From Alphaproteobacteria bacterium (lineage in GTDB: Bacteria > Pseudomonadota > Alphaproteobacteria > Rhizobiales > JAKIUO01), in the NCBI GenBank assembly GCA_024280895.1, contig JAJRPI010000054.1:1-64000 (forward strand): a stretch of DNA of 64,000 nt, written 5' to 3'. Position numbers and translations under genes: made by a program. The notes beneath the pieces were generated by a model that searched no databases, had not been told where the DNA came from, and worked only from the letters and a program-made list of their open reading frames with translations. This document shows positions 22,441 to 53,031 of this stretch, one piece after another. Each line of letters begins with the position of its first letter. Within the stretch, counting starts at the first letter, position 1.

Positions 22441-24471
22441 ATGCGGAAAAATATCATGTCTAAATATGAAATATTCTCTGTGCATCTGTTCACCGCCCTG
22501 TTTGCGGTGTTTCTTTTGCTGCCGCAAAAAGCATTGAGTGCCGACAAGCTTCCTCCCGCCGTCCTGATCATTGATGGCTCTGGCAGCATGTGGGGACGGA
22601 TAAACGACCGCGAGAAAATCGTCATCGCCCGACAGGAGCTGGCTCGTCAGATCGATTTTCTGCGCACCAGGGTTGACCTTGGGTTGATGTCATACGGCCA
22701 TCGCCGCCGCCGCGATTGCCGCGATATCGAGATGATTGTGCCTATTAGCCCCCTCGACCCAAAAGCTCATGGTGAGGCGATCAAGCGCCTGCTACCACGC
22801 GGAAAAACCCCTATTTCGAGCGCTTTGGAGATGGCGGCGCAAGCACTCAAATCCTCCAGGACAAGCCAGGCCAGCGGTCAGCGCACCCATATTGTTCTGG
22901 TCGCTGACGGCATCGAAAATTGCCGCCGCGATCCCTGCAAAACCGCGACCGATCTATCCGCCCAATATCCTGACCTGACGATTGACGTCATCGGCTTTGG
23001 CCTGCCCGACTCCGAGCTGCCACAACTTGCGTGCATTGCCCAAAACGCCAAGGGCCGCTTCCACCGGGCCAATAATAAAGCCGAATTGCAAATCGCCATC
23101 AAGCAGGTTTTCAGCTCCCTTGGCACTACCAGCAAGCCCGCGATCATTACCAAGAAAAAACAAATCAAGAAAAAGCCCTCGGGGCTATATCTTAGCGCTG
23201 GCTTATCCTCAAAGGGAGCCGGGCTTGATAAAGATATCAGCTGGCGCATTTATCCAGCCGGGCAAAGTTCAAAAACCGGTGCCACTCCCTTGCAGCGCCA
23301 TGCCTTGGCCGCTCCTTTTTTACCGCTACCAAGCGGTAAATATCATATTGAAGCGCGCCATCAGACATTACTTGCTGAGCGCGATGTCACCTTGCGCGCC
23401 AATACCGCTCTCAAACTGCACTTAAGTTTCAATGTCGGAATTTTCACCGCCAGCGCCAAACTAGGGGAAAGTGCTGCTCTGTCAGATAATATCATTTTCT
23501 CCCTTTATGACGCCTCAAAAGGGAAAGACGGTGCAGGCGAGATTATCACCCATAAACAACAATCCAAAGCCGTGTTCTACCTCCCTCCTGGCAAGTACAG
23601 TCTCAAAGCAAGAGCTAACGGAACACAGGCCCGCCATGACTTCACTTTAAAAGCTGGAGAACGAAAAACTCATATTTCGCTACTGGATGCCGGTGAAATC
23701 AGCTTTATCGCCCGCCTCGCCGAAAATCTGCCCGCGCTGCGCGACGTGCAATATGCGATCTATCAACGCCGCGCTAAAAAAGATGTGGAATTTATTCGCA
23801 CCCTTGACCCCAACCCCAGGCTGATCCTCCCCAAGGGCAACTATTTCGTCTTGGCCCGTCAAGGAGCCGCCTCCAGCTATACAAGGCTTTTCGTTGAAGC
23901 AGGTGATACCAAAATAGTTTCCCTCACGCTTAATGCAGGCATATTGAAACTGTCATCCAATCTGGATAATCGCGCCAGCGATCAATCCGCCCAGATCGCC
24001 TATACGATCGAGCCGGTGGATCGCAACAATTCCGAAACCGTCCAATTATCCGCCAATAGTACCTTAGTTGAAACGGCCCAGTCTTTGCCCACCCGCAGTT
24101 TTCGCAATCGATTTGTGCTGCGGGCCGGAGACTATGTAATCAAGGCTATTTACGGCAATTCAAATGCCCGGGCGAGCGCCCGTGTCCACGTCACCGCTGG
24201 TCAAGAAACGGAGCATAAAATCAAAATGAGCGCCGGCAGAGTGAAGTTTTCTCTCGCTTTAGCGCTCGGCAACCCACCGCTACCAGGCGTGTTTTGGAGT
24301 ATTCTTGATGCCTCCAACAAGCAGATCGCCAGTGCCAGTTCCATCACGCCAAGATTGACACTGGCGCAGGGCAATTATCAAGTGGTGGCTGACTATCTGG
24401 GCGAAAGCTACCGCAAGAGCTTTGTCGTTAATAATGGTGACAGTAAAAATATTCAACTGGAGCTGCAATAA
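22441..24471 (+). CDS. Exported von Willebrand A protein with five beta-domain repeats
   Basis: 676 aa. A signal peptide covers about residues 1-34 (LFTALFAVFLLLPQKALSA). A vWA domain follows at about 38-230 with an intact MIDAS motif DGSGSM (Asp45), then LLPRGKTPISSAL and VLVADGIENC. After a Lys-rich linker come about five units of roughly 85 residues. Each opens with xAGxxxF(A/S)xxxL and ends with PxGxYxxxAxxxG plus a xxAGxxxxxxL strand, like small periplasmic beta-sandwich domains. It should be periplasmic or secreted; metal-dependent ligand binding is likely, the partner unknown. ATG 22456 (GGA upstream) is an alternative start. A close paralogue follows directly, so the two form a tandem pair. 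Confidence 0.85.
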   Translation: MRKNIMSKYEIFSVHLFTALFAVFLLLPQKALSADKLPPAVLIIDGSGSMWGRINDREKIVIARQELARQIDFLRTRVDLGLMSYGHRRRRDCRDIEMIVPISPLDPKAHGEAIKRLLPRGKTPISSALEMAAQALKSSRTSQASGQRTHIVLVADGIENCRRDPCKTATDLSAQYPDLTIDVIGFGLPDSELPQLACIAQNAKGRFHRANNKAELQIAIKQVFSSLGTTSKPAIITKKKQIKKKPSGLYLSAGLSSKGAGLDKDISWRIYPAGQSSKTGATPLQRHALAAPFLPLPSGKYHIEARHQTLLAERDVTLRANTALKLHLSFNVGIFTASAKLGESAALSDNIIFSLYDASKGKDGAGEIITHKQQSKAVFYLPPGKYSLKARANGTQARHDFTLKAGERKTHISLLDAGEISFIARLAENLPALRDVQYAIYQRRAKKDVEFIRTLDPNPRLILPKGNYFVLARQGAASSYTRLFVEAGDTKIVSLTLNAGILKLSSNLDNRASDQSAQIAYTIEPVDRNNSETVQLSANSTLVETAQSLPTRSFRNRFVLRAGDYVIKAIYGNSNARASARVHVTAGQETEHKIKMSAGRVKFSLALALGNPPLPGVFWSILDASNKQIASASSITPRLTLAQGNYQVVADYLGESYRKSFVVNNGDSKNIQLELQ

Positions 24472-24583
24472 GCGCAAGGGCGAAGGGGTCTACTTGTTAA
24501 TATGGAGGGCAAGACCCTTAACAATCTTTCATAGTTATGCCTTATTTTTTCGTCTATGGTCAGGCATAGCGGGGAACCACAAT

Positions 24584-26524
24584 ATGAATGAATTTGCACT
24601 GCGCGGATCAGCTCTTCGACGCACCGCTCGATGCGCATTTGGGGGCGCGGTGCTAACTGCTGCCCTGTTAAACGCGCATGCCCCGGCCAACGCCACCCCC
24701 CCACAACTGGTAATCATTCTCGATGCCTCGGCATCGATGGAAGACAAGCTGGTCAATGAACTAAAATACAAGCTGGTGCGCAAAGCTATGAGCACAGCTC
24801 TTCCGGCCTATGGCGGCAAACTGGTGGCCGGCCTCATCACATTTGGCCGCAACACACAGCAATCTTGCAAGGATATTTCCCGACTGGTTAGCCTCAAACA
24901 GCTAGAACCAAAAGCCTTTACCAATGTCATCAACAATATCAAGCCAAAAGGCAAAAGTCCCATCGGCGCTTCACTGGCAGCAGGTGCAGATCTCGCCAAT
25001 ATTGCTTCCAGACCTTCTGATATGCTGTTGATTGCCGATGGCAGCGATAATTGCGGCGCTAATGTTTGCGCCACAGCCAATCTCATAGCAAAACGCTCCC
25101 CGCAAACGAAAATCCACGTCATCGGACTTGGTAAAACATCAGCGGTCAATCGCCTGTCTTGTGTAGCCAACGCTACAAATGGCATTTTCACAGCGGTTGA
25201 TAGTAGCAATGAAATGGCCACCGTCCTCAAAGTTATATTGCAGACCGTGGTGATTGGCGAAGAACCCGCCAAGCCGACTCTGGCCGTACTGGCGCGCCCT
25301 CCCTTGCCTAATCCCCGCCCATTGGACGAAGCAGCTGCCTTAGCTGCCGCAAAACACACGATCAAATTCCCCAGCACAGTGCCCCTCCCCGTGCGATCTC
25401 CAGCGCGAAAAAAAGCGTCCCAAGCTCTTGCACGAACGCCTAGTGAGCCACAGACAACGGCTGCACTAACTCAAAAAGAAGTTCAGCTGCCCGTTACTCA
25501 GACAGACGCGCAAAAAGCACCCGTTCCTGTTGAAGTGCAAGCACAAGAGCCGGTTATCTGGCAAAAAATCACCGAGAAACCAACAATCATCGCAGAGGTG
25601 GTGCCATCTGCAACGCCTGCACCAACTCCAGATAAAAATATAGCCCCAGCCCCAGCGCCTGTCCCAGCGCCTGCCAAACCTGTTTTCAAACCGGTCACCA
25701 CTCTCCCCAACACAACCTTTCTAGGGGACAAACCATCGATCGAGGTCACCCTCCCCAAGACATCTGCCAAGGTGACATTTGGTGCGCTGATCACCGAGCA
25801 AGGCAAAGCCATTAAGAGCGGGCTGTTCTGGCGTATATATAAATCACGTAAAGACAATGAAGGGCGCTACCAGCTCGTAAAATCAATTGAGGCACCTTCG
25901 TTTGACGATCGCCTACCACTTGGTGTTTATCTGGTCAATCTGTCCTGGGGGCGCTCGCACCTCACCGAAAAACTGGATATTTTATCCTCCAAACCCTTTG
26001 TCCATAATTTTATCTTGAACGCTGGCGGATTGCGACTTGGAGCGCGTCACCTTGATGGGTCGGTGTTACCTGCATCAAAGGTCATCTATCGGATTTATTC
26101 GGACGAACGTGACCAGTTCGGCAAGCGCCGGTTAATTCTCGACAACGCCAAACCGGCCCGCACCATCCGCCTCAATGCCGGCATCTATCATGTCGCCAGC
26201 CTTTATGGCACCGCCAATGCTCTTGTTGAAACCGATATCACCATTGAAGCTGGCAAACTGACTGACGCCGTGATCAATCATAGCGCCAGCAAAGTGACCT
26301 TCAAGCTCGTCAATAAATCCGGCGGTGAAGCGCTAGCTGGAGCGATCTGGCGTATCTCTTCCCCAGATGGCAAGCTCATCAAGAACGCAGCTGGCGCTTT
26401 ACCAAGCCTTATTCTGGCGGCCGGCGACTATAAGATTAATGCAAAATATTCTGGCCGGACATTCACCCGCAAAGTGACCATTGAACCTGGCGCCCCGGTC
26501 TATGTTGAACTTGTGATTGAATAA
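24584..26524 (+). CDS. Second exported von Willebrand A protein, paralogue of the preceding gene
   Basis: 646 aa from ATG 24584, with GGGGA about 9 nt upstream. A signal peptide ends at APANA (residue 37). The vWA domain (about 38-230) has MIDAS DASAS (Asp47), IKPKGKSPIGASLAAG and LLIADGSDNC, matching the first protein block by block. A Pro/Ala/Thr-rich linker (about 245-385) contains runs of PAPAP. Three C-terminal units follow of the same repeat as in the upstream gene, each with GxxWRIY or YRIY and LxxGxYxV. The gap to the upstream gene is 112 nt and a terminator follows, so the pair probably forms one transcription unit. Its job is unknown; two similar sensors or adhesins with different spacing is an inference. 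Confidence 0.85.
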   Translation: MNEFALRGSALRRTARCAFGGAVLTAALLNAHAPANATPPQLVIILDASASMEDKLVNELKYKLVRKAMSTALPAYGGKLVAGLITFGRNTQQSCKDISRLVSLKQLEPKAFTNVINNIKPKGKSPIGASLAAGADLANIASRPSDMLLIADGSDNCGANVCATANLIAKRSPQTKIHVIGLGKTSAVNRLSCVANATNGIFTAVDSSNEMATVLKVILQTVVIGEEPAKPTLAVLARPPLPNPRPLDEAAALAAAKHTIKFPSTVPLPVRSPARKKASQALARTPSEPQTTAALTQKEVQLPVTQTDAQKAPVPVEVQAQEPVIWQKITEKPTIIAEVVPSATPAPTPDKNIAPAPAPVPAPAKPVFKPVTTLPNTTFLGDKPSIEVTLPKTSAKVTFGALITEQGKAIKSGLFWRIYKSRKDNEGRYQLVKSIEAPSFDDRLPLGVYLVNLSWGRSHLTEKLDILSSKPFVHNFILNAGGLRLGARHLDGSVLPASKVIYRIYSDERDQFGKRRLILDNAKPARTIRLNAGIYHVASLYGTANALVETDITIEAGKLTDAVINHSASKVTFKLVNKSGGEALAGAIWRISSPDGKLIKNAAGALPSLILAAGDYKINAKYSGRTFTRKVTIEPGAPVYVELVIE

Positions 26525-29173: not shown

Positions 29174-29599
29174 CTAGTCTTCCGACTGCTCTGGTCGCCG
29201 GCGCATTTTTTTAACGCCGGACCGCTTGGTCTTGCGTTCGAGGCGGCGTCTTTTTTGCGCCCTGCTGGGCTTCGTGGCGATACGCTTTTTGGGTTCAATA
29301 CAGGCGTTCTTTACCAGCTCGACAAGGCGTTCGATGGCGTCTTTGCGATTTGCATCCTGAGTGCGATGCTTGTTGGCAGTGATGACGATCACCCCTTGCT
29401 TGGTCAAGCGGCGCCCTGCCAGTTTTTCAAGCCGCAAACGCACACGCAAAGATAGCGCATTGGGCCCACGCACGTCAAAGCGCAATTGTGCAGCGCTCGA
29501 GACCTTGTTGACATTTTGCCCGCCAGGACCGCTGGCCCGCATATAGGAGAGCACTATCTCATCGTCATCGATGGACACGCGATCATTAATAACAATCAT
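29174..29599 (-). CDS. arfB: Alternative ribosome-rescue factor B / peptidyl-tRNA hydrolase
   Basis: 141 aa. The GGQ motif (Gly26-Gly27-Gln28) sits in SGPGGQNVNKVSSA, the codon-independent hydrolase signature shared with class I release factors. The C-terminal tail is strongly basic (RAQKRRRLERKTKRS), the part that enters the empty mRNA channel of stalled ribosomes in ArfB/YaeJ. Length and layout are standard. It releases nascent chains from stalled ribosomes. The start overlaps the PP2C stop by 4 nt, so it is translated from the FHA-PP2C operon. Confidence 0.93.
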   Translation of the reverse strand: MIVINDRVSIDDDEIVLSYMRASGPGGQNVNKVSSAAQLRFDVRGPNALSLRVRLRLEKLAGRRLTKQGVIVITANKHRTQDANRKDAIERLVELVKNACIEPKKRIATKPSRAQKRRRLERKTKRSGVKKMRRRPEQSED

Positions 29600-30408
29600 T
29601 TAGGTGACTTCATCTTGTCAAAGCCAATCACTACAACTGTGATATTGTCCTGCTCGGGGGCCGCTTTCTTTTTCACCGCACCAATCAGCTCCTGGGCCAT
29701 TTGATCGGCGCTTTTCGAGCTGTTTTTGGAAACAATTTTGGAGATGCGGTCATAAGAAAGCGTCGCCAGTCCGTCACTGGCCATAATCAGCCAATCACCT
29801 TTGACCAAAGGGATCGCTTCGCGATTGAGATCAACCAGTGTGATCTCATCTCCGGTCACAGCTGAACGCAGCATATTGCGCTTGGGGTGATGCAAGGCTT
29901 CAACCGTGGTGATTTCGCCGCGATCCCGCAAATTGTTCAAAACCGGTGCCAACGAGTGATCCTCGTTTAGTTTTGAAAGCTTTTTATTGTGGTACAAATA
30001 AAGCAGGCTGTCGCCAACGCTGATCCAATGCACGCCCGACTGATCGACGCACACCCCCACCAGAGTACATCCCATGCCATCCAGCTGCGGGTCTTTTTCA
30101 ATGGCTTTGGAAACTGTTTTGTTGCTGGCGTCCAGGCTGAGCAAAAGGCGCCGATCAATTGATCCCTCAATCTCGGGATAAGTTGTCATAAAACTGCCGC
30201 AGGTGATCTTGCTGGCTTTTGCACCCCCGACATGACCACCCATACCATCAGCCAACACAGCAACCAGCTCCATGCAGCGGCGATTGCTCTGACCATTGCT
30301 GGTATTCTTGTCGAAGCGCTGAAAGACCTTGATGCCATAGGCATCTTCTTGGCGTTTGCGCTCACCAATATCGGATCGGCCTGCATGTTGAAAAGAGACA
30401 AATGTCAT
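29596..30408 (-). CDS. PP2C-type Ser/Thr protein phosphatase
   Basis: 270 aa. The metal-binding and structural motifs are complete: RQEDAYG, VLADGMGGH, DGMGCTLVG, SVGDSLLYLY, ASDGLATLS and EQDNITVVVIG. These coordinate two Mn/Mg ions in bacterial PP2C enzymes of the Stp/PppA kind. It is cytoplasmic, without a membrane segment. It lies between the FHA gene (58 nt upstream) and arfB (4-nt overlap), with the kinase-WD40 gene divergent on the other side, so the likely substrates are that kinase and its targets. Confidence 0.93.
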   Translation of the reverse strand: MTFVSFQHAGRSDIGERKRQEDAYGIKVFQRFDKNTSNGQSNRRCMELVAVLADGMGGHVGGAKASKITCGSFMTTYPEIEGSIDRRLLLSLDASNKTVSKAIEKDPQLDGMGCTLVGVCVDQSGVHWISVGDSLLYLYHNKKLSKLNEDHSLAPVLNNLRDRGEITTVEALHHPKRNMLRSAVTGDEITLVDLNREAIPLVKGDWLIMASDGLATLSYDRISKIVSKNSSKSADQMAQELIGAVKKKAAPEQDNITVVVIGFDKMKSPK

Positions 30409-30466
30409 CGCGCAAACATTCTGTGATCAAAACGGGGAGTCGAAATAGAAAAATACACGACCATCC

Positions 30467-31144
30467 TTATTTGGAGTGAACCGGAAGGTCGGACCAGTCA
30501 AATTCATCACCGCAAAACGGGATAAACACAAGCTGCGTATTACCCATCGAAATAATATCATATGGCATCAGGCGTACCGCTGATGTTGGCTTGACATTGT
30601 CAATAGAGACGACATTGGTCTTGGCCAGATTGGGAATGAACAAAAACTGGCGATCATCGGCATCATAGCGGATATAAGCCTGCTCACGTTTGGAGATATA
30701 TTCGTCTCCAAAATCGATCGGAATGCGCTGATCTGATACCGATCCAATCGTATTGGAGCCTGTAAAAATCGGCCGATGTGCGCCAATGCCCGGTCCACCG
30801 ACCACGACCAGCCAGCCAACCACCGGTTCTTGATAATATTTCAGCTCTTCATCGCTGCCACCAAAAACCTTGGTTTTAGGGCCTCCAGATTCTGTGACCG
30901 TTTCTGGCTGGGCCTCGCTTGGCACCTCGCTTGGTGCCTTGTTTGATGGCTGTACGTCCTTGTCATTCATAATGCTCTCCACACCAGAAGTCGCTTCGCC
31001 AGATGAAATTTCTTTGTCGTCGCCCTGCCCAATTGCGGCCAGCGCTTCCTTGAGGCTTGTTGAGCGTGTTTCAGGTGTCGCATGCGGACGACCAGAAGCC
31101 GAGCCATCCTTGGTTGGATCATTTGATCCGCCTTGACTTGTCAT
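30467..31144 (-). CDS. FHA-domain protein with a disordered N-terminus
   Basis: 225 aa. Residues 1-95 are Ser/Thr/Glu/Pro-rich and probably disordered, with several Thr that could be kinase sites (for example PETRST). An FHA-like domain follows (about 115-215): PIFTGSNTIGS, IPIDFGDEYISKREQAYIRYD and LMPYDIISMGNTQLVFIP. The canonical Arg after the Gly (GR) is Ser here, and the SxxH signature reads ISKREQA, so phosphothreonine binding may be altered. AAGGAA lies 12 nt before the ATG. It is first in an operon with PP2C and arfB. Confidence 0.8.
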   Translation of the reverse strand: MTSQGGSNDPTKDGSASGRPHATPETRSTSLKEALAAIGQGDDKEISSGEATSGVESIMNDKDVQPSNKAPSEVPSEAQPETVTESGGPKTKVFGGSDEELKYYQEPVVGWLVVVGGPGIGAHRPIFTGSNTIGSVSDQRIPIDFGDEYISKREQAYIRYDADDRQFLFIPNLAKTNVVSIDNVKPTSAVRLMPYDIISMGNTQLVFIPFCGDEFDWSDLPVHSK

Positions 31145-31345
31145 CGAATATCTATTCCTTTTATCGCCATGAACTCATTGACCAAAGCCCTCCGATATAA
31201 CTTGGCCAGAACATCATCAATCCAGCAGCCATGCAAGTCGTTTTTATGACCCTTTATACCAACCAAATAAATTGACCGTTTCGTCCTTGCCCTCAATTGA
31301 TGCTAAGTTATAAAAGAAAGCAAAAAATTTTGCCGTTGAGGACCC
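31145..31345. promoter_or_regulatory. Divergent promoter region between the FHA and kinase genes
   Basis: 201 bases separate the two start codons, which point outward. This must hold both promoters; no operator could be identified by eye. Confidence 0.45.
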
Positions 31346-33895
31346 GTGACGAAAAATAACCAACATCCCCTAGCCTTACCGGTAGGCACCGAACTTGTCG
31401 GTGATTATGTGATTACCAAAGTGCTCGGCGCGGGCGGTTTTGGCATTACCTATGAAGCCAATGAGCGCTCTCTCGACCGCACGGTCGCGATCAAGGAATA
31501 TTTTCCTGTCGACATTGTCGAGCGCGAAGGCTGGGCACTGGTCAAAGCACGCTCCAACACCCTCGATATGAAATATGCGCGCGGCCTGCGTCGCTTCATT
31601 GAAGAAGCCAAGGCCATCACGCAGTTTAACCACCCCAATATCGTGCGGGTCCTGCGCTATTTCAAAACCAATAATACCGCCTTCATGGTGCTGCACTATG
31701 AAGAAGGCCTCGATATGGGGGTCTGGCGCGACGGCCTTAGCAGCCCCCCCACACAAAACCAGCTGACGGCCATTCTCAAACCCTTGCTGAACGCGCTGGA
31801 GTTGATCCATAGCAATGATTTTCTGCATCGAGATGTGGCACCCGACAATATCATCATTCGTAAAGATGGCTCCCCCATCCTGATCGATTTTGGCTCAGCC
31901 CGCTCGGAACTCACCTTCAACTCGAAAACCGTCAGCGCGCTTGTTAAATCTGGCTATTCGCCTTTCGAGCAATATGCCAAAAACAGCAAAGAACAAGGCC
32001 CCTGGACAGATATCTATTCCTTTGGCGCAACGCTCTACCAAATGGTCACCGGGGAAGCGCCACCTGACAGTTTGTCCCGCCTTGCAGTCGATGAGATGAT
32101 ACCGGCAAAAAAGCGCGCCAAACGATATTATAGCCGCGACTTTCTTGCCGCCATCGACAACGCTCTTGCCATCCGCATAGAAGACCGTCCGCAATCAATC
32201 GATGAATGGCGCAGCTTGCTATTTCCCGCGGAGGCGCAAGAGACAAAAAAGAACGCAACACCCAAAAAGCCCAAGATGCCAATACTGTCTGGGCTGGCGG
32301 GGCTAAAAAATGTTAAAAAACCCAGCTTCCGCCTCCCTCGACGCAGCGACAAATTGAAAAAATCTGGCCAGGCTTCAGTCGCAGATCTGATGGAAAAAGC
32401 GGGCCTCAAGCCGGCAAAAATCTCCAGCAATGCCTCTAAGCTATGGGTATCTCTCTGGACCTGGTTGAGCAGACTTGTTCCCAAAAGAGATCCCAACGCG
32501 TCCCGTAGAAAAAAAAGCAAAATGCCGCGCCTGCATCGTAAAAAGGATGGTTCGCTTGCACGCAATGATGATGCGCCAAACCCTCGCTCCCTGCGTGCCC
32601 TTCTTCATGAGCTTGATGAAGAATACAAAGATATCGCCCATGAGCTAGTGATCGATGAAGGGGCCAGTCTACCGCCCACCCCCAAGATCAAAGAGCCTAA
32701 AAAACCGCGCAAACCTTTTGCGCCCGTGTTCTTTGCAAAGATACGCAAAATCTTGCAAACGCTCAAAAAAATTGTCATCAAGCTGTTTCGCTCTTTGTCA
32801 CTGCTGGTGCGCTTTACTGCGGGCCTGCTATTGCTCGGTAGCCTCGCATTATTGATCAATTATTACCGCCCAGACCTCACCCAAATCGCTAAGAAGGTCG
32901 GTGTGCCAGATGGTTTAAAGACCTCGGTGACCATTAAGCCAGTAAGCGCCAAAAAACCTACCCGCCAACCAAGGCCAAAACCAAAGCCCAAACCGATACT
33001 GGCACCGCCGTCCCACCTCCTCAAGACCTTGAACGCTCACAGCGGCGGGGTCATCAGCCTGCTTGTCTCCAGCAGCGGCAACCAGCTCATATCGAGCGGC
33101 GCGGACCGGACTATCAAGATTTGGAATTTGTCAAACGGGACCCTGGGCCAGAGTTTCGAACCCCATCAACAATCCATCACCGCTCTTGATGTTTTGGGTA
33201 ATCGACTGGTGCAAGGTGATGCCAGCGGCAATATTTTTCTGTTTGATTTGACCAGAACCGAGCAGCTCGCCACCTTCAAGGCTATTGATGGCCCCATCAG
33301 CACCATTGCTTTTGTCGGGCGCGGCAACGACCTGCTTACCGGCTCCAATCAAGGCGAGTTGGCTTATTGGGAATTTCGGGATGGTGAATATTTACGCGCT
33401 GAAATACGCGGTACCGGCCATAGCGATGCCATTCGCTCCATTGTCACCCACCGACGCTATTTCGTCACTGGCAGCGCCGACCATAGCGTCAAACTCTGGC
33501 GCCGCTCACGAAAACGCCTGATCCGCACATATCTCTCACACGGCGGGCCGGTCAATGCGGTGGCCCTGTCGCCAAAAGCCTATCGCATGGCCAGTGGCTC
33601 CAGCGATGACACCATTAAAATATGGTCTCCCAAAACCCGGCGCTTGCGCCGCACATTACAGGCCCAACAAGGCTCCGTAACCGCTCTGGCCTTTGCCCAA
33701 AATGGCAAATGGCTGGCGTCGGGTGGCCTGGATCACAGCATCAAAATATGGAATGCCCGCAATGGCAAGCTCGTACGCCTGTTCAAAGGGCATACGGGAA
33801 TGGTGCAAAAACTCGTGTTCAGCCCGGATAAAAACCAGCTAATTTCCGCCTCGACCGATGGCAGTATTCGCTTCTGGAAGTGGAATTCTCGATAG
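31346..33895 (+). CDS. Membrane Ser/Thr protein kinase with a seven-bladed WD40 domain
   Basis: 849 aa, GTG start with GAGG about 7 nt upstream. The kinase domain (about residues 20-295) is complete: glycine loop GAGGFG, VAIK Lys50, HRDVAPDN with Asp163, and DFGSAR with Asp181. A basic, Lys/Pro-rich region (about 300-480) precedes one transmembrane helix near 484-506. A Pro/Lys linker leads to seven WD40 repeats (about 555-849), each ending in a W/FxxxD-like strand (IKIWNL, VKLWRR, IRFWKW). The kinase is cytoplasmic and the WD40 propeller should be periplasmic, a receptor-like plan. It is divergent from the FHA and PP2C genes, forming a kinase-phosphatase-reader module. Confidence 0.93.
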   Translation: MTKNNQHPLALPVGTELVGDYVITKVLGAGGFGITYEANERSLDRTVAIKEYFPVDIVEREGWALVKARSNTLDMKYARGLRRFIEEAKAITQFNHPNIVRVLRYFKTNNTAFMVLHYEEGLDMGVWRDGLSSPPTQNQLTAILKPLLNALELIHSNDFLHRDVAPDNIIIRKDGSPILIDFGSARSELTFNSKTVSALVKSGYSPFEQYAKNSKEQGPWTDIYSFGATLYQMVTGEAPPDSLSRLAVDEMIPAKKRAKRYYSRDFLAAIDNALAIRIEDRPQSIDEWRSLLFPAEAQETKKNATPKKPKMPILSGLAGLKNVKKPSFRLPRRSDKLKKSGQASVADLMEKAGLKPAKISSNASKLWVSLWTWLSRLVPKRDPNASRRKKSKMPRLHRKKDGSLARNDDAPNPRSLRALLHELDEEYKDIAHELVIDEGASLPPTPKIKEPKKPRKPFAPVFFAKIRKILQTLKKIVIKLFRSLSLLVRFTAGLLLLGSLALLINYYRPDLTQIAKKVGVPDGLKTSVTIKPVSAKKPTRQPRPKPKPKPILAPPSHLLKTLNAHSGGVISLLVSSSGNQLISSGADRTIKIWNLSNGTLGQSFEPHQQSITALDVLGNRLVQGDASGNIFLFDLTRTEQLATFKAIDGPISTIAFVGRGNDLLTGSNQGELAYWEFRDGEYLRAEIRGTGHSDAIRSIVTHRRYFVTGSADHSVKLWRRSRKRLIRTYLSHGGPVNAVALSPKAYRMASGSSDDTIKIWSPKTRRLRRTLQAQQGSVTALAFAQNGKWLASGGLDHSIKIWNARNGKLVRLFKGHTGMVQKLVFSPDKNQLISASTDGSIRFWKWNSR

Positions 33896-34214: not shown

Positions 34215-36434
34215 ATGCCACGCAAAATTCTAAAGGCCCTTAAGGAGAAGAAACTCCCGCAGATGGTCGATTGGTATAATCCCGGGCTGCTCGCAAAAAT
34301 CGGTGTGCGTGAGGTGATCTCCTCGGTGATGGGACAATATGCTGATCAACGACTGCTGCAGGCGGCAACCGACCGCGCGTCGGAAGAAGAACTTTCCAGC
34401 AGATATGACTATTCCAATCCCGAAAATCCAGATGAACTCAAGCGCTTGCAAACCGATGGCAATGGCGCATTGTGGGTCGACTATATTGCTGATCTGGGAG
34501 ACGGGTTCGAGCCGACTTTTGCCATGGCCAGCCTGCTGGCTGCAGAAAGCCTTAACCTTGGTGACGTGGGTCACCTGCGACATGGCGAAGTGCTCATCAT
34601 GGGCGGTGATCAGGCCTACCCGCAAGCCTCGCGACAACAATATCAAGACCGGTTGCAAGACCCATATGATATGGCCTTTAGCGCTGATGACCAACCAGAG
34701 CGCAAACTGTTTGCCCTGCCTGGCAATCATGACTGGTATGATGGGTTGAATGCCTTTGACAATCTGTTTTGCTCGGCGCGAGATCGTAGCGCCCACGGCA
34801 AAGGCACCCGCATCGGTGGCTGGCAATGTATGCAGCATCGTAGTTATTTCGCCATTGAACTCCCCCATAATTGGTGGATCTGGGGAGCTGATATACAGTT
34901 TTCCAACAATCTTGATGATGGCCAGATCAACTATTTTGACCTCATCAGCGAGCAAATGGGACCAGAAGACAAAGTCATAATCTGTATTGCCGAACCTAGT
35001 TGGCTGGAAGCGGAAGCCAAGGGCTATGATGAGCACGAGAACCTTAACGCCATTTCCATGCTGGCCCGCAAGACCGGTGCGCAAATTTGCGCAGTGATGG
35101 CTGGCGACTGGCATCATTATAGCCGTTATCATTCTGAAGATCTGGGCATCCACTTTATCACTTGCGGCGGCGGCGGGGCCTTTGCTCATGCCACCCATCA
35201 ACTCAAAAACAAGCTCACCGTGCATTGGCCAGTGGCCACGAAAACGGGGGAAACCAGTGATGATAGTCTGGCATTTGACAAAGCTGAAAAACGGGTTTTG
35301 AAAGGCGATAATGAAATCGATTTCAAAGCGCAAGACTTTGAAATTTCGGTTGAAGATGATCCCAAGAAAGCTGATCAGCCACATAACAGACCGCGCCCAC
35401 CCAACGCCAAACGGCTGCTGGGCAAGGCCGAGCCATTTGATCATGAAAAGCCGTCTATTTACCCCTCACGCCTGACGAGTCGCCTGCTAAGCCTGCGCAA
35501 TTTTGCCCTGCCATTTCATAATTTCAGTTTCGCGCTGGGCCTTGGCATTATCTACTTTATCTATTCCTGGATGGCGTTTGGTATTAACGAAGAAATTCAA
35601 TATTTCCAGGGATCATCTGGCGCAAATTCCAAAGATGATCATAGTTTCATCTGGTTTGTATATCTGGCCAGTCAGCAATCGATCGCATTCTTTTTATTGG
35701 TCATTGGCTTATGGATCGGGCTGGTCAAATATGTTGATACCAGCGTCATCAAATTCAAGTTTTTAAGACCATGGATCGCAGCCACGTTTGGTACAGCGCA
35801 CTTTATGGCTCATCTATTGACGATTGCCATCATGACTATTCTCGTTAATGGCTTCATATACCAACTTTCCCAATTTCACAATAATTTCACTACACCGGAT
35901 ACAACAGCGGCATTAAAGAAGGAAATAGCCACCCTTGGCCATGATCAATATCTCTCTCTTCAATCGTTTATAGCCACGGGAAGCTATAAGAAAAATCCCG
36001 CAAAGCTAATGGAGTTAAAAACCGAAAAAGTCAGCCAGTTGCAAAAGGTCGAAACGCAACGCGAGAAAAATCTGTTCGCTGGTTACCGCATTCTTGGCGC
36101 TCTTTTGTTAATCCCGATTGGCGGCATATTAGGCGCATTGGTGTTTGGCACCTACTGGGTGTTCACATGCTCACTTTTTTCCATGCACTGCGGCGATGCC
36201 TTTGGGGCGCTGATGATCAAGGACTATAATCATTTCTTGCGCATGAAATTTGAGAAAGACAAGCTGACTATTTACCCTATTGGTCTCAACCGTGTACCAC
36301 GAGCGCGAGGCTGGGTAGAACCCTCGGCGGCTGGCAAGTTGCGGCCCAACAAACCAATGATTGTTCCTAAAAAACCCCTCAAAATCCACCTTATCGAGGA
36401 TCCTATCGTCATCCATGCAAAAAACACGGCGTAA
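34215..36434 (+). CDS. Calcineurin-like metallophosphoesterase with a C-terminal membrane domain
   Basis: 739 aa; GGGGAGC precedes the ATG. The phosphoesterase domain spans about residues 85-330: DLGDGFEPT, GGDQAYP, LPGNHDW and AGDWHHYSRYH give the full set of Asp/Asn/His ligands for two metals. An Asp/Glu/Lys-rich linker follows. About five to six hydrophobic segments then cover residues 435-660 (FSFALGLGIIYFIYSW, SIAFFLLVIGLWIGLV and others), and a basic cytoplasmic tail ends the protein. It should sit in the inner membrane with the catalytic domain cytoplasmic. The substrate is unknown: phosphodiester or lipid pyrophosphate are guesses. The next gene starts 14 nt after its stop. Confidence 0.88.
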   Translation: MPRKILKALKEKKLPQMVDWYNPGLLAKIGVREVISSVMGQYADQRLLQAATDRASEEELSSRYDYSNPENPDELKRLQTDGNGALWVDYIADLGDGFEPTFAMASLLAAESLNLGDVGHLRHGEVLIMGGDQAYPQASRQQYQDRLQDPYDMAFSADDQPERKLFALPGNHDWYDGLNAFDNLFCSARDRSAHGKGTRIGGWQCMQHRSYFAIELPHNWWIWGADIQFSNNLDDGQINYFDLISEQMGPEDKVIICIAEPSWLEAEAKGYDEHENLNAISMLARKTGAQICAVMAGDWHHYSRYHSEDLGIHFITCGGGGAFAHATHQLKNKLTVHWPVATKTGETSDDSLAFDKAEKRVLKGDNEIDFKAQDFEISVEDDPKKADQPHNRPRPPNAKRLLGKAEPFDHEKPSIYPSRLTSRLLSLRNFALPFHNFSFALGLGIIYFIYSWMAFGINEEIQYFQGSSGANSKDDHSFIWFVYLASQQSIAFFLLVIGLWIGLVKYVDTSVIKFKFLRPWIAATFGTAHFMAHLLTIAIMTILVNGFIYQLSQFHNNFTTPDTTAALKKEIATLGHDQYLSLQSFIATGSYKKNPAKLMELKTEKVSQLQKVETQREKNLFAGYRILGALLLIPIGGILGALVFGTYWVFTCSLFSMHCGDAFGALMIKDYNHFLRMKFEKDKLTIYPIGLNRVPRARGWVEPSAAGKLRPNKPMIVPKKPLKIHLIEDPIVIHAKNTA

Positions 36435-36448
36435 ATTATAAAACGGGA

Positions 36449-37657
36449 ATGGGTGCACTTATGGAAGAATTGCTTGAGCTGGAGAGAAAAAATGACCTGA
36501 TGGGCCTTATTACAAGGATCCAACAGCTCGCGGCGAAAGACAAAAGAATTTTCACCAATCCCTTTGTCAAACACTGGTGCGCGCGGCGCTGGCGCTATTT
36601 CTTCCTCAATGAAGCGATCAGCGACCTGACCGCCATCGACCATGCCAGCAAGCCTTTTTTTGATCGCCGGTCCTATCGACAAAGAGCAGCTGAATATTAT
36701 TTACTCGGCGAAGATCGAACCGGCTGGCTGGACGAAATGCCGGACCCACAAGTCACCAAAATAACAGAAACGACCTTGCTGTTTTGTCCCGGTATGCTCA
36801 ACGGTATGCGTCCCATGCGCGCCTTTGGCGATGCTATGCCCCGTATGAGCAAGCGGTTTTCCTTAAAAATATTGCGCTCAGATAATCACCCTTTGCGCTC
36901 GTGCGAAGCTAATATGGCCGATATTCTAGCGGCCCTTAACGAGGGCAAAGGCTTTGATGCTGTTGGCGCAACAATTCCAGCAAGTGAGCGAAAAGCCCCA
37001 GACGACGTATTCCTTGTCACCTATAGCAAAGGAGCTCCCGACACGCTGACCCTGCTCGCCAATCATCCAGACCTGGCTCCGCGCGTTCGTTGTCTTTTCA
37101 CTTGGGCTGGTGCTGTCGGCGGTTCTGAAACAGCCGATGAGATCTATAAAAAAATACAATATTGGGGCAACAAGCCACATGTCGCCTCCCTTGGCAGAAT
37201 GCTCAAGGGTCTGGTGCCTGGTAGAATGAAGACAGATCATTCCACATTCAGGCGCCTTGATGAATATGATACCACCGGCGCCGTGCGCGATTTGACCACC
37301 AAGGTCCGCGATGAATTTATGAAAAAACATGGCGGCAATCTCGATCGATTGAATATTCCCATATTTTATTTGCGCGGCGCTGCCTCAAAGGAAAACATCC
37401 CGCTGATCCAGCGCGCTGATTTTCGCAAGCTGCAAAAATTTGATCCTCAAAACGATATGCAGGTCACTGCAAAACGCGCCGCGGTGCCTCTACCAATGGC
37501 AACCGATCTTGGACTGCTCAATGCGCATCACTGGGATCTCTCCTATCCAGCCTTCTCAAAACGGCGCTATTTCAACAATCTGGCCAATCCCTTCCCCAAG
37601 GAAGCGGCGATTACCGCCATGTCTCTGCTGGCAGCCGAACTCGGTCTGGTTGAATAA
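36449..37657 (+). CDS. Alpha/beta-hydrolase-like protein of unknown function
   Basis: 402 aa from ATG 36449 (ATG 36461 is equally possible). The N-terminal 100 residues are helical. After that LLFCPGMLNG starts a hydrolase-like core; FLVTYSKGAPDTL looks like a nucleophile elbow (SxKGxxD rather than the usual GxSxG), and GLLNAHHWDLSY may carry the late His. FTWAGAVGGSE follows the elbow. No signal peptide is present. I do not recognise the family with certainty. The 14-nt spacing to the membrane phosphoesterase suggests co-transcription and perhaps a common lipid or phosphoester substrate, which is inference. Confidence 0.75.
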   Translation: MGALMEELLELERKNDLMGLITRIQQLAAKDKRIFTNPFVKHWCARRWRYFFLNEAISDLTAIDHASKPFFDRRSYRQRAAEYYLLGEDRTGWLDEMPDPQVTKITETTLLFCPGMLNGMRPMRAFGDAMPRMSKRFSLKILRSDNHPLRSCEANMADILAALNEGKGFDAVGATIPASERKAPDDVFLVTYSKGAPDTLTLLANHPDLAPRVRCLFTWAGAVGGSETADEIYKKIQYWGNKPHVASLGRMLKGLVPGRMKTDHSTFRRLDEYDTTGAVRDLTTKVRDEFMKKHGGNLDRLNIPIFYLRGAASKENIPLIQRADFRKLQKFDPQNDMQVTAKRAAVPLPMATDLGLLNAHHWDLSYPAFSKRRYFNNLANPFPKEAAITAMSLLAAELGLVE

Positions 37658-51240: not shown

Positions 51241-53031
51241 TCAATTCTTGCAACTTCCGAATGTCCTCGGAAATCCAGAAATGCCCTTCCGAATTCTGCA
51301 TATAGCGCCATCACTTCTCCTGCATGGATCTCCGACCTTCACGTAATGGTCCTTTTCAGCATGGCAAGACACTATTTTCGAAAGCTTGCGTCTTTGCTTC
51401 TTTTTCAAATTGCTTTTTACGGGCTTTATGCTCGTCGGTGTAGGTTTCTTAATGATGGTTTTAATACATCTACCCCGTTTGTTTAGAGACCACCTATTTC
51501 TACAGGTTTTCTTTACACATATATCACCTCCCACGCGGAATTGTGGACCGCAAGTTAGCGGACAGACACGCTCCTTCTGCTTCCTCACGATATTTATTGC
51601 CTCCATTGAAGGTTGTTTGGTCGGAATTTTGAGCTTTACCAATCTGATAAAGCGGGAAAGAGCCTTTTTGCCTTTATTCCCCCATTTTCCATCAACCTTA
51701 CCGGGATCACAACCAACACGTCTTAGTTCGTTTTGCAGGACGAGAGTCATGGCTTTTAAGTCAAGCGTTGGTGTTGTTTGAGCATTTGCTTCGGTTTTTG
51801 CTTGCTCAGGATTTAGAGCAGCCAATTTAATTTTCTGAGCTTCTTTTGCTTCAGCGTGCTTTTTTGCCGCCTCCTCCATTACCTCTAGACGCCTGGCCAG
51901 TGCGTTACGTTCTCGTGCCAACTTATTCCGTTCAGCCATTTGTTCTAGCCGAAGATCATCCAGTTCTTTTTTCCGAAATACAACCTCTGCCTTTCGCTTT
52001 TTAACTTCAGCTTCATTTTGCCTTTTACGTGCTGCTTTCAGCTCTGCCTTTTGTTTGGCCTTGATCTCGCTGGTAAGTCTGAACTCCTCAATTTTCATAA
52101 GAGCCAGAGGAGTGAAAGTACCTTTTGGGAACTTCTTGACATAGGCTTCATAAGCACGGCGCGACCCTTGATCCTTTGCTGCTTGCCAAAAAGCCAATTC
52201 AATAGCAGGAAAGAAGAGTGGTTGCGCGCCCGATTTAACAGCTGGAATTGGTTTTGAAGTAGCTTTCTTGTTGGCTCCAGCCGGATAAAAATCACCGAGC
52301 AGAGATGAGTTGATCCACGGGAGCTGCTTCTTTCTGGAGCGTTCATAGACTTTTCGCCGGGTTTCTTTGAAAACACGCTCAATAGTCAAACCGGATGTCT
52401 GCATTAACTTGGCAAGTTCCAATGTAAAGGGACTGTTTTTGCCGACGCCATCTGCGGCCACATCACCGGGGCTTGTCGAATAGGCAATGAGCGAACCCAT
52501 AGGTGCATTCATCTGCCGCAGGCCTCGATTGACCGAGCGGAACAGGCTGCGATAGGGATTATTGCGGCAGGCATCCAGAACGATAATGTTGAGGCGGTTG
52601 CGAGCTTCGCGAACACCGAACAGAAGCGATGAGGCACTGATCGCTTCGATGTCAACATCACCTTCTTTCTCGATTTCTGCGGCCACTGGTATCAGATAAT
52701 TGGTTCCCTGAACTTGTAAACCGTGTCCCGCATAAAAGATAAACCCGATGGTGTCGCGTCCATTGCTTTGTAGCTTCGAGGTGTAACGCCTGATTGCCCT
52801 TTTCATGGCCCGGTATTTCAGGTCAAGGCCGAGGATAACTTCAAACCCTTGGCCTTCGAGCACATTTGCTATGAGCTTTGCGTCATTGGCTGGATTATCC
52901 AAAGCTGGGATGTTTTTGTAGGCCGAATTGCCGATAACAAGAGCAACGCGCTTCTCAGCCAATGCACTCTGCGACACCGAGACAATAAAAAATAAGCAAA
53001 TGAAGAATTTAATCCAGCGCTTTTTTTTCAT
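51241..53031 (-). CDS. Exported caspase-like (C14/metacaspase) protein with Cys-rich tail
   Basis: 596 aa; AGGGGC lies 5 nt before the ATG. A signal peptide ends at ALAEKR. The p20-like domain covers about 26-260: RVALVIGNSAYKN, the catalytic His103 in FYAGHGLQ and Cys155 in VLDACRNNPY. A charged coiled coil (about 320-410, KAKQKAELKAARKRQNEA-like) follows. Then a short helical unit, LQNELRRVGCDPGKVDGKWGN, resembles a peptidoglycan-binding domain. The last 110 residues carry ten cysteines in two clusters. Such proteins are common in Hyphomicrobiales, expected periplasmic, with unknown substrate. Confidence 0.9.
   Translation of the reverse strand: MKKKRWIKFFICLFFIVSVSQSALAEKRVALVIGNSAYKNIPALDNPANDAKLIANVLEGQGFEVILGLDLKYRAMKRAIRRYTSKLQSNGRDTIGFIFYAGHGLQVQGTNYLIPVAAEIEKEGDVDIEAISASSLLFGVREARNRLNIIVLDACRNNPYRSLFRSVNRGLRQMNAPMGSLIAYSTSPGDVAADGVGKNSPFTLELAKLMQTSGLTIERVFKETRRKVYERSRKKQLPWINSSLLGDFYPAGANKKATSKPIPAVKSGAQPLFFPAIELAFWQAAKDQGSRRAYEAYVKKFPKGTFTPLALMKIEEFRLTSEIKAKQKAELKAARKRQNEAEVKKRKAEVVFRKKELDDLRLEQMAERNKLARERNALARRLEVMEEAAKKHAEAKEAQKIKLAALNPEQAKTEANAQTTPTLDLKAMTLVLQNELRRVGCDPGKVDGKWGNKGKKALSRFIRLVKLKIPTKQPSMEAINIVRKQKERVCPLTCGPQFRVGGDICVKKTCRNRWSLNKRGRCIKTIIKKPTPTSIKPVKSNLKKKQRRKLSKIVSCHAEKDHYVKVGDPCRRSDGAICRIRKGISGFPRTFGSCKN

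Follow-up and report, generated by a model that had tools for sequence, protein, structure and literature searches.

A 64,000-nucleotide stretch of an alphaproteobacterial genome (Rhizobiales; GenBank assembly GCA_024280895.1, contig JAJRPI010000054.1, positions 1 to 64,000; here called the window) encodes a membrane Ser/Thr kinase with a C-terminal WD40 propeller, back to back with genes for an FHA-like adaptor and a PP2C-type phosphatase. We propose, with a probability of roughly 60%, that these three proteins form a self-contained membrane phospho-switch that is independent of type VI secretion systems (T6SS), in which a PpkA-type kinase, an FHA adaptor and a PP2C phosphatase work in the manner of GarA and OdhI. 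It is chiefly from T6SS regulation that trios of PpkA, PP2C and FHA proteins are known. In the family of Hyphomicrobium, which comprises stalked and budding bacteria, a near-universal trio free of T6SS would offer a defined kinase-substrate-phosphatase set testable in culturable Hyphomicrobium, and one that combines a conserved candidate phosphosite with a swappable outer sensor. We found no description of a kinase/FHA/PP2C/WD40 set in the open-licence literature, as judged on titles and the beginnings of abstracts.

In the proposed switch, the kinase would reside in the inner membrane and expose its WD40 propeller to the periplasm as the sensor of a signal. The cytoplasmic kinase domain would phosphorylate a conserved Thr motif in the adaptor's tail, the PP2C encoded alongside would take the phosphate off again, and the phosphorylation state of the adaptor would select its binding partner, as in GarA and OdhI. 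Across most of the family, reading of the mark could fall to a second FHA protein, anchored in the membrane. This second FHA gene is absent from the window's genus and the adaptor there has lost its binding Arg, so that a phosphorylation-gated change of the tail is a likelier output there than classical phosphothreonine (pThr) reading.

The gene set itself is conserved. A preliminary description of the window had placed the kinase to the right, and FHA, PP2C and arfB genes to the left, of a 201-bp divergent gap, a layout (including a 4-nt gene overlap) that coordinates, Pfam, NCBIfam and the FHA model bear out; it had also named conservation of the set as a check, and here too its expectation holds for kinase, FHA and PP2C. 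Of 75 loci (the window plus L063-L136), 74 have PP2C after the FHA gene, the exception (L070) ending 60 bp past the latter. A divergent kinase gene lies within 4 kb in 63/75 loci, and in 58 of the 63 loci with at least 3 kb of upstream sequence; L075 is scored as a miss only through overlap of its kinase frame with the FHA frame. The adaptor FHA gene is present in 97/103 genomes of the Hyphomicrobium-containing family (f2), or 74/76 when only high-quality genomes are counted, in 44/397 genomes of the order, and in 12/41 when the window's own genome is taken with 40 relatives; thus, the set is almost a core feature of one family but has a patchy distribution elsewhere. Locus maps place the kinase and FHA-PP2C genes back to back across several families, and a scan of named genomes returned 80 loci (some on the same contigs as those of the relatives set), mostly from Hyphomicrobium, Filomicrobium and other Hyphomicrobiaceae. 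When 7,099 open reading frames of L063-L136 were clustered, kinase, FHA, PP2C and second FHA genes were among the largest clusters; many further clusters are, to go by their coordinates, antisense or out-of-frame readings of these same genes. One genome that holds the main FHA gene carries a second cluster of the kinase/PP2C/FHA type (L173; G256 C30).

Both enzymes carry conserved catalytic motifs. Pfam scores the window protein at 104 bits for the kinase domain and 165 bits for WD40, and the closest PDB structure to the kinase domain is PpkA (5hnv; 217.6 bits, E 1.8e-63, residues 10-292), the next match scoring 74.9 bits. Orthologues retain the HRD motif and the glycine loop (each 62/62), and a hydrophobic segment (≥1.6) follows the kinase domain in 54/62, in a topology table that includes some truncated kinases. 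The kinase alignment A3 comprises 32 of 56 kinases. The flanks of the segment in the window protein carry net charges of +6 before and +1 after, and orthologue segments are mostly basic on the N-terminal and near-neutral on the C-terminal side; cysteine is absent beyond the segment in 58/62 kinases and present in 4/62. With the kinase domain taken to be cytoplasmic and a single predicted membrane segment with a basic N-terminal side in between, the propeller is predicted to be periplasmic, in agreement with the preliminary description, which had put it outside the membrane. Its AlphaFold2 model (pLDDT 93) contains 28 strands, that is, seven blades. In more distant relatives the C-terminal parts of the kinase vary: L137 carries ankyrin repeats, L179 gives a weak PQQ-like match, and in L127 nothing follows the segment. 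Kinase, FHA and PP2C are retained while the sensor part differs (L137 and L127), as expected of an exchangeable sensor. The phosphatase (PP2C_2, 37.7 bits; cut-off 24) has as its closest PDB chains 1txo and PstP (2cm1), with PppA lower at 48 bits, and orthologues keep the RxxQED and GDS motifs without exception (73/73 each).

The adaptor consists of a tail lacking predicted structure, followed by a divergent FHA domain that carries PFCGxEFDWS at the C-terminus. No Pfam FHA (PF00498) match was obtained for the window protein even at E 1, and nine homologues scanned alongside gave 17-36 bits, on either side of the 20.7 cut-off. We nevertheless assign it an FHA fold because its AlphaFold2 model (66 sequences, pLDDT 81) matches FHA domains, with GarA and OdhI at the top (Foldseek E 5.6e-7; Z 14.4; ∼24% identity over the domain). 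The underlying alignment (A2) comprises 66 of 81 FHA frames; seven were left out for a non-matching N-terminal pattern (L093, L126, L130, L138-L141), and L109, L111, L115, L119, L120, L128, L133 and L134 for their closeness to other sequences. Within A2, the tail Thr is kept in 63/66 adaptors, in a motif of the general form T-x-[LMV]-[VIF]-[RG]. The search pattern for it occurs 120 times in 74 tails, where shuffles give 4.0 expected occurrences, with at least two copies in 46 tails, and a near-identical pattern shows no enrichment over chance in the kinase domain, the linker, the WD40 part, PP2C and the second FHA protein, which served as controls. We infer that the tail Thr is probably the phosphorylation site of the locus kinase.

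Several observations weigh against the proposed switch. The kinase gene is not beside the FHA gene in L079, L085, L093 and L124, and of five genomes checked on account of a missing or cut-off kinase, three have a close kinase elsewhere and two gave none (G480, best match 39 bits; G482, best match 169 bits). The case for a periplasmic propeller comes down to hydropathy, charge and cysteine content. By sequence profile the adaptor is nearest to mycobacterial FhaA (E 5e-4), not to GarA. The enrichment of the tail motif comes from related sequences rather than 74 independent events and so reflects conservation, not independent recurrence, and the tail is unplaced in the AlphaFold2 model (pLDDT 43-47). 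Finally, the Arg of the pThr site has become Ser in 5/5 members of the window's genus.

This last change also bears on the strongest alternative, in which the adaptor is a classical pThr reader or scaffold that uses its FHA domain to bind the kinase after autophosphorylation and recruits PP2C, the tail Thr being incidental or serving for docking only. Much of the site would suit such a role: across A2 the Arg (of a GR pair) is kept in 60/66 adaptors, with Trp replacing it in L087, and the site Ser and Asn are each found in 66/66, the window protein included; the adjacency of the FHA and PP2C genes in all loci but one would fit recruitment as well. However, the site His is replaced by Gln in 64/66, the window adaptor lacks the full canonical Arg/Ser/Asn triad, and the tail Thr is conserved as strongly as the FHA domain. 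In Agrobacterium, Fha binds phosphorylated TssL via R30 and S46, and pThr binding is lost when both are changed to Ala (PMC3953482); the Arg of that pair corresponds to the residue lost in the window's genus. Overall, we consider the reader or scaffold role unlikely. The preliminary description had proposed a complete switch of kinase, phosphatase and reader: the trio stands as a conserved unit, but the label ‘reader’ is doubtful in the window's genus, because the pThr-binding Arg is lost and the second FHA gene is missing, and the window's own genome has no Pfam-detectable FHA anywhere.

That second FHA gene lies between kinase and adaptor in at least 47/75 loci, a lower bound because overlapping open frames (e.g. 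in L128) were excluded from the count. Its product has a hydrophobic segment in nearly all cases and an FHA domain at the end (59 bits with Pfam FHA in L111, for example); in the window's genus it is absent and the gap between kinase and adaptor is 201 bp. More distant clusters carry additional VWA-FHA and trypsin-FHA proteins. The family also provides a natural series for following an FHA domain through the loss of a pThr-binding residue, with the gene set kept throughout. More tentative still is an extension of the phospho-switch to a core T6SS-free PpkA-type system of Hyphomicrobiaceae, where a WD40 sensor in the periplasm might act through a GarA-like FHA switch on a universal family trait (e.g. 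envelope or polar/budding growth), the switch of the window's genus being phospho-blind in its FHA site and working by the tail only.

With the T6SS pathway of PpkA, PppA and Fha, the set shares the same three activities, a kinase domain nearest PpkA, and PP2C and FHA proteins encoded nearby; it differs in having a WD40 propeller as sensor and a short FHA protein with the domain C-terminal. Control of a T6SS was considered and rejected: TssK and VipB are both absent from the window's own genome (0/1 each), and VipB occurs in 1/103 genomes of f2. We call the set T6SS-free and PpkA-like because its kinase is nearest PpkA yet these markers are absent. The adaptor resembles GarA and OdhI in being a short protein with an N-terminal tail followed by a single FHA domain of the same fold; the conserved Thr motif of its tail may be a counterpart of theirs. 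The phosphorylated GarA tail peptide ends in VETTSVFR, and GarA's own FHA domain then binds the phosphorylated tail (PMC5448819); adaptor homologues have TRVFR or TQLVR and the window protein TKVFG, which resembles the GarA motif but is not ETTS. In contrast to those proteins, the window adaptor has lost the pThr-site Arg, and NF041660 (OdhI) is not among its NCBIfam matches at E 0.01, FhaB/FipA giving a weak match; GarA is stated to be unique to the Actinobacteria (PMC12321487).

We class the set as a PpkA/PP2C/FHA variant free of T6SS, with an adaptor proposed to work like GarA/OdhI, and claim membership in neither group. PkwA of Thermomonospora curvata is likewise a single chain that contains both a kinase and WD40 repeats, and the structure of its WD40 part is among the PDB matches; we know of no FHA or PP2C partnership for it. 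Mycobacteria group the genes for PknB, PstP and FhaA/FhaB, and the likeness extends to a sensor kinase with an external domain, a PP2C nearest PstP and an FHA protein nearest FhaA; here, however, the sensor domain is a different one, and no cell-wall genes recur beside the set among the largest neighbour clusters. For WD40 genes, having kinases as neighbours or fusion partners is reported to be frequent in Cyanobacteria and Planctomycetes (PMC5587647).

Two further explanations fare much worse. A kinase-type anti-phage system might be suspected, as the kinase domain scores against kinase profiles of PADLOC (mad6, 147 bits; PD-T4-6, 129 bits) and a kinase-kinase-phosphatase module with an antiphage role has been published (PMC11341870). 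However, profiles of the mad6 and PD-T4-6 type match Hanks kinases generally, neither FHA nor PP2C has a PADLOC match at E 1e-5, and the FHA gene is near-core in f2, unlike patchy defence genes; with generic kinase profiles as the only PADLOC result for the set, we rejected a defence function as very improbable. The other explanation concerns arfB, whose product is well supported (NF006718, 172 bits; cut-off 100; RF-1, 78 bits; GGQ motif present as GPGGQNVNK) and whose gene overlaps that of PP2C by four nucleotides (ATGA, 29596-29599). From this overlap the preliminary description had linked ribosome rescue to the switch. The overlap is kept in 5/5 genus members, which makes co-translation of PP2C and arfB plausible within the genus, and arfB is retained in G003, where the genes past it differ from those of the window. 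Yet arfB adjoins the set in only 5/75 loci, all from the window's genus, and in G005, G021 and G024 the FHA gene and arfB are both present on different contigs. We therefore read arfB as a local operon extension, confine any ribosome-rescue link to the genus, and reject arfB as a component of the switch beyond it; the idea that the set is a translational or stress module, with ribosome rescue tuned by the switch and arfB as its true output, is the least probable reading of all.

Table 1. Features of the kinase/FHA/PP2C locus in the window.
Feature	Position	Strand	Details
Membrane Ser/Thr kinase with C-terminal WD40 propeller	31346-33895	+	849 aa, GTG start; Pfam
Kinase domain	31406-32230	+	motifs GAGGFG, VAIK, HRDVAPDN, DFG
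Single predicted transmembrane segment LLVRFTAGLLLLGSLALLI	32801-32857	+	hydropathy 2.24, N-terminal side basic
Seven-bladed WD40 propeller, predicted periplasmic	32978-33892	+	AlphaFold2; no cysteine
Divergent intergenic region, FHA start codon to kinase start codon	31145-31345		201 bp
FHA-like adaptor protein	30467-31144	-	225 aa; alignments, model, fold matches
Conserved T-K-V-F-G motif of the tail, candidate site of the kinase	30860-30874	-	just before FHA domain
Codon of pThr-site residue, Arg (GR) in most homologues, Ser here	30740-30742	-	
PP2C-type Ser/Thr phosphatase	29596-30408	-	270 aa; Pfam PF13672 above cut-off, motifs
arfB	29174-29599	-	141 aa; NF006718 above cut-off

A promoter consensus scan was uninformative (7 sites vs 4.9 in shuffles, none inside the 201-bp gap), and the window gave no Rfam or tRNA match. 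Next to the kinase gene, positions 34215-37657 encode a membrane protein that weakly resembles calcineurin phosphoesterases and a second protein lacking a family match; this pair adjoins the kinase in a congener locus (L050) too. Two adjacent VWA-domain proteins that look secreted are encoded at 22441-26524, with synteny kept in congeners, and a caspase-like protein (PADLOC caspase, 35 bits) at 51241-53031. Elsewhere in the window's own genome, a 567-aa PP2C-kinase fusion protein (L062:5289-6989; C64), which contains every other strong kinase or PP2C match of that genome, is encoded beside a transporter that we take to be NarK-like. In Thiomicrospira microaerophila, one cluster (L140) combines seven or more kinase frames and two PP2C with several FHA fusions (to trypsin, RDD and Lcl) and a MotA/ExbB-like protein.

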